Assembly: GCF_008642295.1 (NCBI RefSeq)
Contig: NZ_CP029190.1
Span: forward strand, 2,638,001 to 2,702,000
Source: Streptomyces venezuelae
Lineage (GTDB): Bacteria; Actinomycetota; Actinomycetes; Streptomycetales; Streptomycetaceae
DNA length: 64,000 bases
Direction of reading: 5' to 3'
How positions within the stretch are numbered: position 1 is the first letter of the stretch; the number at the start of each line of letters is the position of its first letter. Made by a program: the position numbers and the translations under genes. This document shows positions 54,105 through 58,956 of the stretch, in pieces. Under the pieces are notes generated by a model that had not been told where the DNA came from, searched no databases, and was given only the letters and a program-made list of their open reading frames with translations.

Positions 54105-54143
54105 CCATCCATGGTGAGGTTAGGCTAACCTCACCATGGATGG
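54105..54143. promoter_or_regulatory. extended iron box (DmdR1/IdeR operator), 39-bp perfect palindrome
   Basis: The core TGAGGTTAGGCTAACCTCA (54115-54133) is a near-consensus DmdR1/IdeR iron box (TTAGGTTAGGCTAACCTAA). The symmetry continues ten more bases on each side (CCATCCATGG ... CCATGGATGG), so 19-base arms surround one central G at 54124. It lies 58 bp before desE and 21 bp after acdH. Fe(II)-bound DmdR1 should repress desE-desF here. Confidence 0.93.
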
Positions 54144-54200: not shown

Positions 54201-55214
54201 ATGCCCAAGTCCCGAGCCGCTCTCCTCACCCGCCGCGGGGTCCTGACCGCCGGCAGCGCCCTCTGCCTCGGCGCCGTCCTGGTCGGGTGCGGCTCGGGAA
54301 GCGCCGACGACAAGGGCGGGGCCTGGTCCTTCAAGGACGACCGCGGCCAGACCGCGAGCACCAAGGGCACCCCGAAGAACGTGGTGGCCTTCGTCGGCAC
54401 CGCCGCCGCGCTCCACGACTTCGGCGTCGAGGTCAAGGGCGTGTTCGGCCCGACCAAGACCGCCGACGGCAAGGCCGACATCCAGGCCGGCTCGCTCGAC
54501 GTCAACAAGGTCGAGATCCTCGGCAACGCCTTCGGCAAGTTCAACATCGAGAAGTACGCGGCCCTCAAGCCCGATCTGCTCGTCTCCAACGTGTGGGAGA
54601 AGGACACCCTCTGGTACGTCCCCGAGGAGTCCAAGGACAAGATCGGCAAGCTGGCACCGAGCGTCGGCCTCTTCTCCGGCCCCGACACCACCATGCCCAA
54701 GGCCATCGCCCGGAACGCCGAGCTCGCCGAGGCGCTGGGCGCCGACCTGAAGTCCAAGAAGACCACCGAGGCCAAGGCCCGCTTCGAGAAGGCCTCCGAG
54801 CGGCTGCGCCAGGTCGCCAGGGCCAACCCGGGCATCAAGGTGCTGATCGGCTCCGGCGACCCCGACCACTTCTACGTCTCGGTGCCGGACAAGGCCGCGG
54901 ACACCAAGTACTACAAGGAGCTCGGCGTCGAGTTCGTCGAGCCCCAGAACCCCGACGCGGCCGGCTTCTTCGAGCCGCTGTCCTGGGAGAACGCCGGCAA
55001 GTACCAGGCCGACCTGATCATCCTGGACAACCGCACCGGCACGCTCCAGGACAAGGACCTGCGCGCGGGCAAGCCCACCTGGGCGGGCCTGCCGGCGGTC
55101 AAGGCCAACCAGGTCGCCCCGCGGTTCGCCGAGCCGATCTTCTCCTACGACGCCTGCGCCAAGCTCCTCGAGGACCTGGCCGCCACCCTGGAGAAGGCCA
55201 AGAAGACCAGCTGA
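54201..55214 (+). CDS. desE: ferrioxamine-type siderophore-binding lipoprotein
   Basis: A 337-residue ABC transporter substrate-binding lipoprotein. A twin-Arg-like N-terminus (LTRRGVLTAGSALCLGAVLVGCG) ends in the lipobox LVGC, with the lipidated Cys near residue 30. The periplasmic-binding fold is of the helical-backbone siderophore type (NVVAFVGTAAALHDFGVEVKG..., FNIEKYAALKPDLLVSN). The iron box upstream, the SIP-type reductase downstream and the acdH/hexosaminidase neighbours match S. coelicolor desE, the ferrioxamine receptor. It needs a separate permease/ATPase, none of which is in the window. Confidence 0.87.
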   Translation: MPKSRAALLTRRGVLTAGSALCLGAVLVGCGSGSADDKGGAWSFKDDRGQTASTKGTPKNVVAFVGTAAALHDFGVEVKGVFGPTKTADGKADIQAGSLDVNKVEILGNAFGKFNIEKYAALKPDLLVSNVWEKDTLWYVPEESKDKIGKLAPSVGLFSGPDTTMPKAIARNAELAEALGADLKSKKTTEAKARFEKASERLRQVARANPGIKVLIGSGDPDHFYVSVPDKAADTKYYKELGVEFVEPQNPDAAGFFEPLSWENAGKYQADLIILDNRTGTLQDKDLRAGKPTWAGLPAVKANQVAPRFAEPIFSYDACAKLLEDLAATLEKAKKTS

Positions 55215-55302
55215 CGCCGGCCTCGGCGCCGGCCCCCGAGACCGGCGCCGGCGCACCCGTGCGCACCCGTACGACCGCAGCACTCCCGGGGGGATCCACC
55301 GC

Positions 55303-56193
55303 ATGACCGAGGACGGGGCAGCCGCCGCCCACTTCCGCTTCTTCGCGCTCGAGGTGCTGCGCACCCGCCGCCTGGGCCGCTCCTTCCTGCGGGTCACCTT
55401 CGGCGGCGACGCCCTCGCCGGCTTCCGCTCCGGCGGACACGACCAGAGCCTGTCGCTGTTCCTCCCGCCCCCGCACCGGGAGCACACCGAACTCCCGTCC
55501 ACCGACGAGCAGACCTGGTTCGCGGCCTGGCGGGGCATGCCGGACGAGGAGCGGCCGGCGATGCGCTCGTACACGGTGCGCGAGCAGCGGCGCACCGCCG
55601 AGGGCGTGGACGAGCTCGACATCGACTTCGTCCTGCACGGGGACTCCTCCCCCGCCTCGCACTGGGCGGGACGCGCCGTGACGGGCCGCCGGATCCTCGC
55701 CATCGGCCCCGCCGTCGCCGAGAACAAGTCGGTCCGCTTCCGGCCGCCGGCCGGTACGGACGCGTTCTGGATCTACGCCGACGAGACGGCGCTGCCGGCC
55801 GCCGCGGCCATCCTTCAGACGCTGCCGGCAGACCTCCCGGTCACGGCCTTCCTCGAAGTGCCGCACGCCGACGACCGGCTCGACCTCACCGCCCCGGCGG
55901 AGGCCCGCATCACCTGGATCGTCCGGGAGGGCGCCGGCCCCGAGCGCACCGAGCAGGTGCTCGGGATGGTGCGCCCGGCCGCGTTCCCCGAGGCGAAGGC
56001 CCCGTACGCGTGGATCGCGGGCGAGTCGGGCACCGTACGGGCGGTCCGCCGGCACCTGGTGCAGGAACGATCCCTCGACCGGCGCGCGGTCCGCTTCACC
56101 GGCTACTGGCGGCTGGGCGCCAGCGAGGAGCAGCTGCTGGCGGAGGCCTACGCCGGCCAGGCTCCGAGCGAGGAGCCCGAAGCGGCCCTGTAG
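55303..56193 (+). CDS. desF: siderophore-interacting protein, ferri-siderophore reductase
   Basis: A 296-residue SIP-family flavoprotein that reduces ferric siderophores to release iron. The FAD motif RSYTVR is at residues 88-93 and the NAD(P)H domain has RILAIGPAVAENKSVRF, DETALPAAAAILQTLP and YAWIAGESGTVRAVRRHL. It follows desE by 88 bp, in one iron-controlled operon. Its TAG stop is formed by the TA end and first G of the fold-back element that follows, so the C-terminus may have been altered by that insertion. Confidence 0.87.
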   Translation: MTEDGAAAAHFRFFALEVLRTRRLGRSFLRVTFGGDALAGFRSGGHDQSLSLFLPPPHREHTELPSTDEQTWFAAWRGMPDEERPAMRSYTVREQRRTAEGVDELDIDFVLHGDSSPASHWAGRAVTGRRILAIGPAVAENKSVRFRPPAGTDAFWIYADETALPAAAAILQTLPADLPVTAFLEVPHADDRLDLTAPAEARITWIVREGAGPERTEQVLGMVRPAAFPEAKAPYAWIAGESGTVRAVRRHLVQERSLDRRAVRFTGYWRLGASEEQLLAEAYAGQAPSEEPEAAL

Positions 56194-56355
56194 GGGGTGT
56201 CCGGTGGATCAGGGCCGGAAGGCCCGGGTCGTCTGGTGCCGTGGATTGCAAGGCGGAGGAGGGAGTCGACGCGGAGCGTCGGCGACCGACGACAACGCGG
56301 CAAGCCGCGGTGCCAGGCGGGCCGGGCCCGGCCCTGATCCACCGGACACCCCCTA
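56191..56355. mobile_element. 165-bp fold-back (MITE-like) element with 28-bp perfect terminal inverted repeats
   Basis: TAGGGGGTGTCCGGTGGATC... (28 bases, 56191-56218) is repeated exactly in inverse at 56328-56355. The outermost TA on each side could be a duplicated TA target, as in IS630/Tc1-like elements, leaving ends GGGGGTGTCC/GGACACCCCC. The inner part is also partly self-complementary (for example CTGGTGCCGTGG against CCGCGGTGCCAG), so the whole element could fold into one long hairpin. No reading frame of its own. It occupies the place where desABCD would be expected. Confidence 0.85.
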
Positions 56356-56370
56356 AGGCCCCCTGGTTGT

Positions 56371-56416
56371 CCGGGCGCGCGTCGATACGGTCCCTCGACG
56401 CGCGCCCGGCTTTTTT
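56371..56416 (+). terminator. strong rho-independent terminator
   Basis: A 15-bp perfect stem (CCGGGCGCGCGTCGA with TCGACGCGCGCCCGG), nine-base loop, then CTTTTTT. It ends rightward transcription from desE-desF and may once have closed a longer des operon. Confidence 0.9.
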
Positions 56417-56435: not shown

Positions 56436-58019
56436 CTACGGCCAGGGGACGTCGGGGGCGCGGAAGTAGCCGATGTCCTGGGCGGTCAGCCGCGGGCCGT
56501 GCGAGGCCAGGCGCTGGGAGTACGCGGCCCAGTCCAGCTTGGCGGCCGGGGACCAGCCCAGTTCCGCGATGCCCAGCACCCGCGGGAAGGCCATCAGCTC
56601 CAGGTCGGCCCGGGTGGCGATGGTTTCCGTCCAGAGCGGGGCCTCCACCCCCAGCACCGCGGACTCCGGGACCCCGGCGAGGTGGGTCCCCGGGTCCCAG
56701 GCGTAGGACCGCCGCACCGGGACATGGCCCGCCCAGGCCAGCCCCAGCGCGGTGTCCTTGTCGTACTTCATGTCCAGGTAGGCGCGGTCGGCCGGGGAGA
56801 GGATCAGCCGGTGGCCGGCCTTCGCAGCCGCCGCCACCCGGTCCCGCTCGGCCGCCGGGGTCTTGTCGTGGCCCCACCACTGGAGCACCGCGCCCGGCGC
56901 CGGCTCCGCCGCCGCCAGCTGATGCCAGGCCACCACCGTCTTGCCCTGGCCGGCCACCGCCTCCTGGGCCCGCTTCATGAAGGCCGCGTAGTCCGCCGCC
57001 GGGGTCGCATGGGCCTCGTCGCCGCCGATGTGCAGGTACCGGCCCGGGGTGAGGGCGGCGAGTTCCCGCAGCACGTCCTCGACGAACTCGTAGGTGACCT
57101 CCTTGGACACGCACAGGGAGCTGAAGCCGACCTTGATCCCGGTGTAGCGGTCCGGGGCCTTGCCGTCGCAGTTCAGCTCCGGGTAGGAGGCGAGGGCGGC
57201 GTTGGTGTGGCCGGGCATGTCGATCTCCGGGACCACCTCCACGTACCGCTCGGCCGCGTACTCCACCAGCTCGCGGTAGTCGTCCTTGGTCCAGTGGCCG
57301 CCGGGGCCGCCGCCGACCCCGCCCACCCCGCCGTACTCGGCGAGCCGCGGCCAGGAGTCGACGGCCAGCCGCCAGCCCTGGTCGTCGGTCAGGTGTACAT
57401 GCAGCTTGTTGATCTTGTACTGGGCGAGCTGGTCGAGGTACCGCTTCACCTGCGGGACCGTGAAGTAGTGCCGGGCGATGTCGATCATCGCGCCGCGGTA
57501 GGCGAAGCGCGGCCGGTCGGCGACCGTGCCGCCTGGGACCTCCCCGGCTCCGGAGGCCGGCACCAGCTGGCGCAGCGTCTGCCCGGCGTAGAACAGCCCG
57601 GCCGGGGTGCGGGCGGTCAGGGTCACGGCGGCGGCGGTGGACTCCAGCCGGTAGCCCTCCTCCGCCAGCTCTGCCGCGGACTCGTCCAGCCGCAGCAGGA
57701 TTCCGTCGCCCGCACCGCCGTCCACCACGGGCAGCGGCAGCCCGCTGGGGCCGCGCAGCTGTTCGGCGAGCCGCTCGCCGATCTGCCGCACCTCCTCGGA
57801 GCCGGTACCGGTACGGATCACCGTGCCCGGGACCAGGCGGTAGCCGGCGCCGCCGGGACGGACGGCGGCGGGGGCGGGCAGGATGCGTTCGTACGGCGGG
57901 GGCTCGGCATGGCGGAGCAGCTCCCCGGATTTTGCGTCGTCGGCACCGCTGGGCTCCGTACAGGAGACCGCCGCCGTGAGGATCAGCAGGACACCGAGTG
58001 CGCGCAGGACCCGTCTCAT
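56436..58019 (-). CDS. beta-N-acetylhexosaminidase, GH20 lipoprotein
   Basis: A 527-residue GH20 enzyme. Lipobox AVSC with the Cys near residue 20. A GH20b domain (about 45-170) precedes the catalytic barrel (about 175-520). The catalytic Asp-Glu pair is in LHIGGDEAH near residue 330, with the substrate-binding YRGAMIDIARHYF near 185 and HVHLTDDQGWR near 220. It releases terminal GlcNAc/GalNAc, for example from chitobiose, outside the cell. ATG 58019 fits the signal peptide; the longer frame on this strand is non-coding. Confidence 0.92.
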   Translation of the reverse strand: MRRVLRALGVLLILTAAVSCTEPSGADDAKSGELLRHAEPPPYERILPAPAAVRPGGAGYRLVPGTVIRTGTGSEEVRQIGERLAEQLRGPSGLPLPVVDGGAGDGILLRLDESAAELAEEGYRLESTAAAVTLTARTPAGLFYAGQTLRQLVPASGAGEVPGGTVADRPRFAYRGAMIDIARHYFTVPQVKRYLDQLAQYKINKLHVHLTDDQGWRLAVDSWPRLAEYGGVGGVGGGPGGHWTKDDYRELVEYAAERYVEVVPEIDMPGHTNAALASYPELNCDGKAPDRYTGIKVGFSSLCVSKEVTYEFVEDVLRELAALTPGRYLHIGGDEAHATPAADYAAFMKRAQEAVAGQGKTVVAWHQLAAAEPAPGAVLQWWGHDKTPAAERDRVAAAAKAGHRLILSPADRAYLDMKYDKDTALGLAWAGHVPVRRSYAWDPGTHLAGVPESAVLGVEAPLWTETIATRADLELMAFPRVLGIAELGWSPAAKLDWAAYSQRLASHGPRLTAQDIGYFRAPDVPWP

Positions 58020-58071
58020 GAGCACAGGTATAGGCCAACTGCCTTGCTCCACACGATGGGAGAATCGCCGG

Positions 58072-58956
58072 ATGGCGGAAATCATCCAAAAGGACGGCAC
58101 GTGGATCTTCGACGGGGACACCGTGCGCATCGTGCCCGGCCGGGACAAGGGGACCGGACTGCTGCGGCAGACACTCGGCGAGGTGGCCGTGCCCCTGCGG
58201 GCCGTGGCGGGCATCTCCCACGAGCCCGGCCGCAAGGCGGGCCGGCTGCGGCTGCGGCTGCGTGACGGCGCGGACCCGCTGCTCCACCTGACGGCCGGGC
58301 GGCTGCCCGAGGCCTCCGATCCGTACCGGCTGACCGTGGAGGCCGACCGGACCGGGGTGGCCGAGTACTTCGTGGACGAGGTGCGCAACGCCCTGCTGCT
58401 GGACCAGGTCGACCCCGGCCCGGCGGACGGGTGGCTGCTGCCGGGGCCGGCCGTGCCGATCACGGTGGGGGCGGGCGACGGAACGGCCTCGTTCGACGGG
58501 ACGCGGGTGTCCCTGGAGTGGAACTGGAAGACGGAGGACGCCAAGGCCTCCGGCGGGACCCGGTCCTTTGCGGTGGCGGACATCAGCGCGGTGGAGTGGT
58601 ACCCCGCGGCAGGGCTGGAGAACGGCTGGCTCCGGTTCTCCGTGGCCGGGAGCGGGTCGAAGGCTCCGGAGCCCAAGTACGACCCGCACGCCGTGGAGCT
58701 CTTCGGCTTCAAGAAGGACCCGCTGATGGCGCTGGTCGGGGCCGCGGTGCTGGCCCGGATGCCGCATCCGTCGGCCCCGCGGGATGAGGCACCGCCGGCC
58801 GTGCCGGCCGTGCCGACCCCTCAGGCCGCGGATACCGCGGACGATCACGATGCACTGCTGCGGCGGCTGCGCGAGCTGGGCGAACTGCACCAGGCGGGGG
58901 TGCTCACCCCGGAGGAGTTCGCCGCGGCCAAGGCGGCGGTACTGCGCCGTTTCTAG
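58072..58956 (+). CDS. DUF4429 (two copies) + SHOCT domain protein
   Basis: A 294-residue protein with two DUF4429 repeats, each starting with a strand-rich D-G-x-x-x-W/F pattern (IIQKDGTWIFDGDTVRIVP at 4-22; GDGTASFDGTRVSLEWNWK at about 135-155), and a C-terminal SHOCT helix (LLRRLRELGELHQAGVLTPEEFAAAKAAVLRRF). DUF4429 is a PH-like fold of unknown function, SHOCT probably an oligomerisation element. The first ATG after a good spacer is used. Confidence 0.83.
   Translation: MAEIIQKDGTWIFDGDTVRIVPGRDKGTGLLRQTLGEVAVPLRAVAGISHEPGRKAGRLRLRLRDGADPLLHLTAGRLPEASDPYRLTVEADRTGVAEYFVDEVRNALLLDQVDPGPADGWLLPGPAVPITVGAGDGTASFDGTRVSLEWNWKTEDAKASGGTRSFAVADISAVEWYPAAGLENGWLRFSVAGSGSKAPEPKYDPHAVELFGFKKDPLMALVGAAVLARMPHPSAPRDEAPPAVPAVPTPQAADTADDHDALLRRLRELGELHQAGVLTPEEFAAAKAAVLRRF

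Follow-up and report, generated by a model that had tools for sequence, protein, structure and literature searches.

Apparent deletion of desABCD with retention of desE-desF in Streptomyces venezuelae, one case of a recurrent loss of desferrioxamine biosynthesis

Desferrioxamine is usually regarded as near-universal in Streptomyces. In Salinispora, Bruns et al. reportedly described in 2018 the replacement of desferrioxamine by salinichelin. The des locus of S. coelicolor (SCO2780-2785 in the numbering of PMC12161575) resembles the Streptomyces venezuelae locus analysed here in its desE-desF pair, its iron box and its hexosaminidase flank; in S. venezuelae, however, desABCD appear to have been deleted, and the desD terminator alone seems to be left. 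Salinispora, as told in PMC9851318, is similar in the repeated loss of the desferrioxamine pathway and in the presence of another siderophore pathway. Our case differs in that it concerns Streptomyces, the receptor and the reductase are kept in place, partial clusters exist as possible intermediates, and both pathway markers occur together in some Streptomyces relatives (G039 and G042). Streptomyces strain A, described in PMC13061897 as a case of siderophore piracy, also makes no desferrioxamine and may use that of others, but it has and transcribes desABCD, whereas these genes are apparently deleted here. The desJGH locus, as presented in PMC12161575, shares with our strain the genes for a SIP reductase and a penicillin amidase flanking an iron box; in our strain, in contrast, desH is missing and there is no desABCD to supply the proposed substrate. 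PMC13293324 reports a desferrioxamine cluster in 987 genomes, with desE in 771 of them, and mentions uptake through another receptor in the event of cluster loss. Among the listed titles and abstract openings of mostly non-subscription literature, no description was found of repeated desABCD loss with desE kept in Streptomyces.

The window, which is the whole stretch of 64,000 nucleotides that was analysed, harbours the features listed in Table 1. The strain possesses a DesE-type binding protein related to S. coelicolor DesE (top PDB match 2x4l/6enk, E 3e-102) together with an iron box. This iron box has two mismatches to the consensus TTAGGTTAGGCTAACCTAA; the pattern search with the reversed pattern as control gave no matches genome-wide. 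DesF is 75-81% identical to the proteins of clade members, and the GH20 hexosaminidase neighbours the site in relatives too. The distance from desF to the hexosaminidase gene is about 240 bp, and therefore there is no room for a desABCD remnant of whatever length. An earlier note on this DNA had described desE-desF and the iron box as present and desABCD as missing at their usual place; desF, in this description, runs directly into a fold-back element, behind which come a terminator and the hexosaminidase gene. This was confirmed by the Pfam assignments, the PDB match, the pattern search and the sequence of the junction. The usual order in Streptomyces, which the note had given from desE onwards (ACD, desE, desF, desA, desB, desC, desD, hexosaminidase), was also found in relatives, for instance in L033 and in the S. 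katrae loci L040 and L041.

Table 1. Features of the desE-desF locus and of its junction with the hexosaminidase gene (positions in the window).
Feature	Position	Strand	Description
Iron box (DmdR/IdeR-type)	54115..54133	.	Upstream of desE, within a longer palindrome; from pattern search
desE	54201..55214	+	Ferric-siderophore binding lipoprotein, 337 aa, intact; Pfam Peripla_BP_2
desF	55303..56193	+	Siderophore-interacting FAD reductase, 296 aa, intact; Pfam SIP + FAD_binding_9
MITE-like fold-back element	56191..56355	.	At the desF stop codon; 165 bp including the TAs, 161 bp between them
Putative relic of the desD transcription terminator	56371-56409, T-run to 56416	+	Hairpin with loop TACGGTCCC; conserved motif at 56384-56398
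Beta-N-acetylhexosaminidase gene (GH20)	56436..58712	-	Far flank of the missing desABCD; Pfam Glyco_hydro_20, 20b; maximal ORF, true start further in

A hairpin with the same loop as the one at the junction stands directly 3' of desD in six of the seven close relatives with desABCD. The motif GATACGGTCCCTCGA, which corresponds to the hairpin loop and the inner stem, follows desD within about 30 bases, exactly in L040, L041 and L164 and with two mismatches in L165 and L168. L166 carries a variant hairpin after desD, recognised by eye, and in L167 the hairpin was not found after desD. The outer stem varies in sequence yet pairs, and folding of the sequences of our strain and five relatives predicted the hairpin in all of them. 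A 17-base form of the motif has one exact copy in the genome, at the junction, and one copy elsewhere with two mismatches; the reversed control gave one match. The terminator motif was not found in TBY4 (L035), AP-93 (L037) and G012 (L162), which lack desABCD. For this comparison, informative junctions came from seven out of ten relatives; of the seven that carry desD, one was neutral. The earlier note had proposed comparing the junction with close relatives, and their hairpin and desABCD at the site point to a derived junction. The hairpin standing here without desD is interpreted as a fossil of the desD terminator, and the desEF-hexosaminidase junction as a deletion scar. By sequence comparison, the deletion would have spanned approximately from the desF stop to the desD stop.

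The fold-back element has the ends TA-GGGGGTGTCC...GGACACCCCC-TA. Its family, with GGGGGTGTCCGG ends and targets that are often TA or CTAG-like, shows at least 36 matches in the genome. At least seven are near full length, including the element itself, and the other six have 71-83% identity; these counts are lower bounds because the scoring covered 40 of 134 candidates, and a single copy may give matches on both strands. The desF copy is flanked by TA on both sides, which is not so at every copy; several other copies are in TA or CTAG-like sites, with L132 and L134 as exceptions. The element is short and repeated, possesses terminal inverted repeats and a target duplication, and has no coding capacity, as expected for a MITE. 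The simplest reading is an insertion at the desF stop codon. The MITE was also considered as the cause of the deletion, but this is unsupported; the flanking TAs fit a simple insertion. Another copy of the family, at 388480, lies about 6 kb from two divergent short IucA/IucC-type synthetases with an adjoining methyltransferase (L005:8632-11800, C1:395 kb).

The search of the genome, one contig of 7,525,322 bases (7.5 Mb), with the families PF00282, PF13434, PF13523 and PF04183 found no orthologue of DesA, DesB, DesC or DesD. PF00282, PF13434 and PF13523 had four, ten and eight matches, respectively. These were compared, in 43 own-genome loci covering all matches except the two weakest of PF13434, with DesA and DesB from L033 and L041 and with DesC from L033. 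DesA and DesB found their best counterparts, at 36-38% and 39-40% identity, in a decarboxylase-hydroxylase pair at 5.60 Mb, and DesC found its best counterpart in an acyltransferase at 2.00 Mb (30%); the remaining matches of the three families among these loci had lower scores or none. PF04183, the NIS synthetase family, had three matches, none of them DesD-like. The match at 2.00 Mb is nearest to the aerobactin synthase IucA and shares 22% identity over 342 residues with a Streptomyces DesD, and the two matches at 395 kb are 26-29% identical to DesD over partial length. The DesD of S. katrae as query gave a single match in the genome (35% over 134 residues, E 2e-5). PMC12161575 provides a rule for a desferrioxamine biosynthetic locus, namely the four families within 5 kb, and the family searches revealed no such locus in this genome. 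The search that the earlier note had called for thus recovered no intact desABCD elsewhere. Copies of these genes could lie on plasmids outside the assembly.

In a marker tree of four flanking genes from 39 loci (LG+G4, SH-aLRT only, computed quickly and with several weak forks), our strain is sister to ten genomes, with SH-aLRT values of 100 for the eleven and 99 for the ten. Seven of the ten have desABCD at the site, and the genes are absent in TBY4, AP-93 and G012. Given this position beside seven keepers, the loss in our strain is independent of the other three, if losses are irreversible. Streptomyces sp. AP-93 has other genes, spanning about 5.5 kb (L037:9947-15445), in the place where desABCD would be. 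Across the whole marker tree, 29 of the 39 loci hold all four genes at the site. The state of desD changed at least seven times by parsimony among the 26 loci from genomes surveyed genome-wide; the 39-locus tree gives eight changes, one of which is an artefact because L036 was scored as lacking desD owing to the end of its contig. All or part of desABCD is missing in nine of the 26 genomes compared at the site, a partly hand-picked set (20 genomes hand-chosen from 60 for this comparison) that gives no frequency. Partial clusters were found in S. lasiicapitis (L052; desA and desC only), NRRL B-1347 (L057; desA, a shortened desB and desC) and MUM 203J (L080; only desB), and desE is kept in the three of them. 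In G012 and G044, desF could not be found next to desE. G014 stands outside the 26 genomes, as one tree gene is missing from the stretch used; its desE has the ACD gene on one side and glmS on the other, desABCD being absent, and the marker of the NRPS cluster described below is present. The loss of desferrioxamine genes with uptake genes kept is one case of a recurrent event and not unique to our strain.

The earlier note had also considered that the biosynthetic genes moved elsewhere. This would require the pair at 5.60 Mb (decarboxylase and N-hydroxylase, L027:8650-11523) to represent A and B, and the pair far away at 2.00 Mb (IucA-like synthetase and acyltransferase, L004:8234-11130) to represent D and C. 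Both pairs exist, and in structure comparisons the L027 hydroxylase matches diamine hydroxylases, the DfoA type included. However, their identities to DesA, DesB, DesC and DesD reach 38, 40, 30 and 22%, versus at least 59% for DesD orthologues in other genomes, the 2.00-Mb synthetase is nearest to IucA, and no iron box at up to five mismatches was found in L004 or L027. Moreover, the 5.60-Mb hydroxylase has some match at E 1e-60 in 80 of 80 genomes and a relative at 65% identity or more in 75 of 80, DesD present or not; therefore it is not a DesB replacement, and the pair was rejected as a substitute for DesAB. On these searches, relocation was rejected as highly improbable. The place of the L004 pair presumably recalls SCO5799-5801, and the L027 and L004 pairs might belong together as the halves of a single conserved hydroxamate pathway. 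Equally hard to credit is an ancestral desEF-hexosaminidase junction with desABCD inserted in other lineages. It is compatible with the tree counts, which cannot tell gain from loss, and with the nine partly hand-picked genomes without all or part of the cluster at this place, but not easily with a desD terminator hairpin standing without desD, with the partial clusters of the three named genomes, or with the prevalence of the complete set across the tree. The tree alone does not separate gain from loss; the relic and the partial clusters favour loss.

The uptake genes show few departures from conserved positions. Of the 74 columns that do not vary among the 38 other rows, DesE departs at two; DesF departs at one of the 60 columns that are constant across its 30 other rows. 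The DesE tree is congruent with the marker tree and places our strain as sister to the same ten genomes (support 98/93), and thus a horizontal replacement of desE was rejected. The DesE of our strain is 59-64% identical to each of 15 others compared, and its end branch in the tree is 0.40, versus sister paths of about 0.31-0.40 (summed by hand). Among 60 same-genus genomes chosen by the search tool, DesD (at least 59% identity) is present in 46 and absent in 14. DesE (at least 50% identity) is present in 11 of the 14 DesD-less genomes and in 38 of the 46 with DesD, so DesE generally outlasts the cluster; both proteins are absent in G010, G019 and G028. In seven of these 11 genomes desE lies beside FecCD permeases at another locus (G002, G018, G021, G031, G035, G051 and G060), and in four it lies at or near the canonical place (G012, G014, G030 and G044). 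Our strain possesses a FecCD permease pair at 5.82 Mb, preceded by an iron box that has three mismatches. These permeases are 67-73% identical to the permeases adjoining desE in S. cinnamoneus, and HAD and DUF1015 genes adjoin them, as they also do at the loci of that species and of others where desE and the permeases lie together. In PMC12161575, DesE is proposed to partner SCO1785-1787, of which the 5.82-Mb permease genes would be orthologues. Another iron box lies between genes that by eye resemble haem-uptake genes of the HtaA type (L182:6482-10617, C1:5.27 Mb), which would represent a further iron source.

The genome encodes an NRPS hydroxamate siderophore cluster at 6.50-6.53 Mb, including a formyltransferase, an ornithine hydroxylase, a binding protein, an ABC exporter, a permease and an NRPS of 5197 aa with four A domains. 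Three iron boxes with 2-3 mismatches were found in the cluster. The formyltransferase, at E 1e-90 or better, was used as marker and detected in 32 of 79 genomes; G110, whose match coordinates coincide with those of G018, was dropped from the marker survey and the 79-genome tables. At the canonical site, the marker is present in nine out of nine losers of all or part of desABCD versus three out of 17 keepers (Fisher p 7e-5). In six phylogenetically independent pairs, a mean of 4.7 pointed in the same direction and none in the opposite one (sign test, median p 0.0625). The association is absent in the other 53 genomes (5/14 versus 15/39); in all 79 genomes the marker occurs in 14 of 23 without DesD and in 18 of 56 with DesD (p 0.024). 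The pattern at the site is reminiscent of the Salinispora replacement told in PMC9851318, a parallel that is at most tentative.

At 2.308 Mb, a desJ-like gene for a SIP reductase and a desG-like gene for a penicillin amidase, separated by an iron box with two mismatches, are present without desH or desABCD (L186:7386-10299, C1:2.308 Mb). In all of the 29 other loci compared, out of 43 other genomes with desG, desH follows desG. A search of the 22 further DesD-less genomes did not find the desJ-desG pair; DesG (E 1e-100) is present in 43 of 56 genomes with DesD versus one of 23 without, the one being our strain. The simple test of this link gives p 1e-9, and six independent pairs give a mean of four in the same direction and 0.2 in the opposite one (median p 0.125), so that relatedness weakens the simple test. 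The phylogenetic profile links DesG to DesD, consistent with the published role of DesG. The protein of our strain retains the GSNGW motif, which we take to hold the catalytic serine, and departs at eight of 211 otherwise invariant columns, the second most of 30. With desJ-desG still present, related chemistry may persist. DesG and DesJ might now process imported ferrioxamines by amide hydrolysis and reduction, an idea that we regard as improbable; if true, the strain would dismantle the captured desferrioxamine, beyond merely stripping its iron.

These genes are also relevant for a very recent loss, after which desE, desF, desJ and desG would simply not be gone yet. The retention of desG in our strain alone among DesD-less genomes, the absence of desH and the departures in DesG agree with it. 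Nonetheless, no surplus of change is seen at the conserved columns of desE and desF, and DesE is about equally common in DesD-less and other genomes; we consider this reading unlikely. Alternatively, DesE could be kept to serve the NRPS hydroxamate siderophore of the strain itself, or another xenosiderophore, instead of pirated ferrioxamine, in line with the distribution of the NRPS marker among losers and keepers at the site. The NRPS cluster, however, comes with a binding protein, an exporter and a permease of its own, and DesE keeps 72 of the 74 invariant columns, in an alignment whose other rows are mostly from desABCD strains, which makes this alternative quite unlikely.

The explanation that we favour as highly likely is that desABCD were deleted, the uptake genes kept and the ferrioxamines of neighbours used, next to an own NRPS siderophore. 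The ancestor would have held desE-desF-desABCD at the site, and a deletion that began near the desF stop and ended near the desD stop would have removed the four biosynthetic genes and spared the desD terminator. The iron box that L041 shows in front of desA would have gone with them, and the MITE was probably inserted later. Judging from the missing genes, the strain would be unable to make desferrioxamines. Under iron shortage DesE would still be expressed and may pass the ferrioxamines of neighbours to the unlinked FecCD permease pair, and DesF may reduce the ferric complex, as the conserved genes and iron boxes suggest. The need for an own siderophore is probably met by the NRPS hydroxamate cluster. 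The proposal of the earlier note that synthesis was lost and uptake kept is sustained by the lack of an orthologue, the relic and the relatives, whereas its term "cheater" holds only in part. The genes for the siderophore whose receptor is kept are absent from the one-contig genome; nevertheless, the strain is not without siderophore genes of its own, and the term is too strong because the iron-boxed NRPS cluster is present. As far as the genome sequence indicates, the strain is a probable ferrioxamine pirate with another siderophore cluster of its own.

The finding of 14 out of 60 same-genus genomes without DesD, 11 of them with DesE, bears on the view of desferrioxamine as near-universal. 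With loss at the site in several lineages and partial stages in named strains, the genus lends itself to studying how public-good producers turn into users, and it offers a recognisable scar and a ready comparison set.
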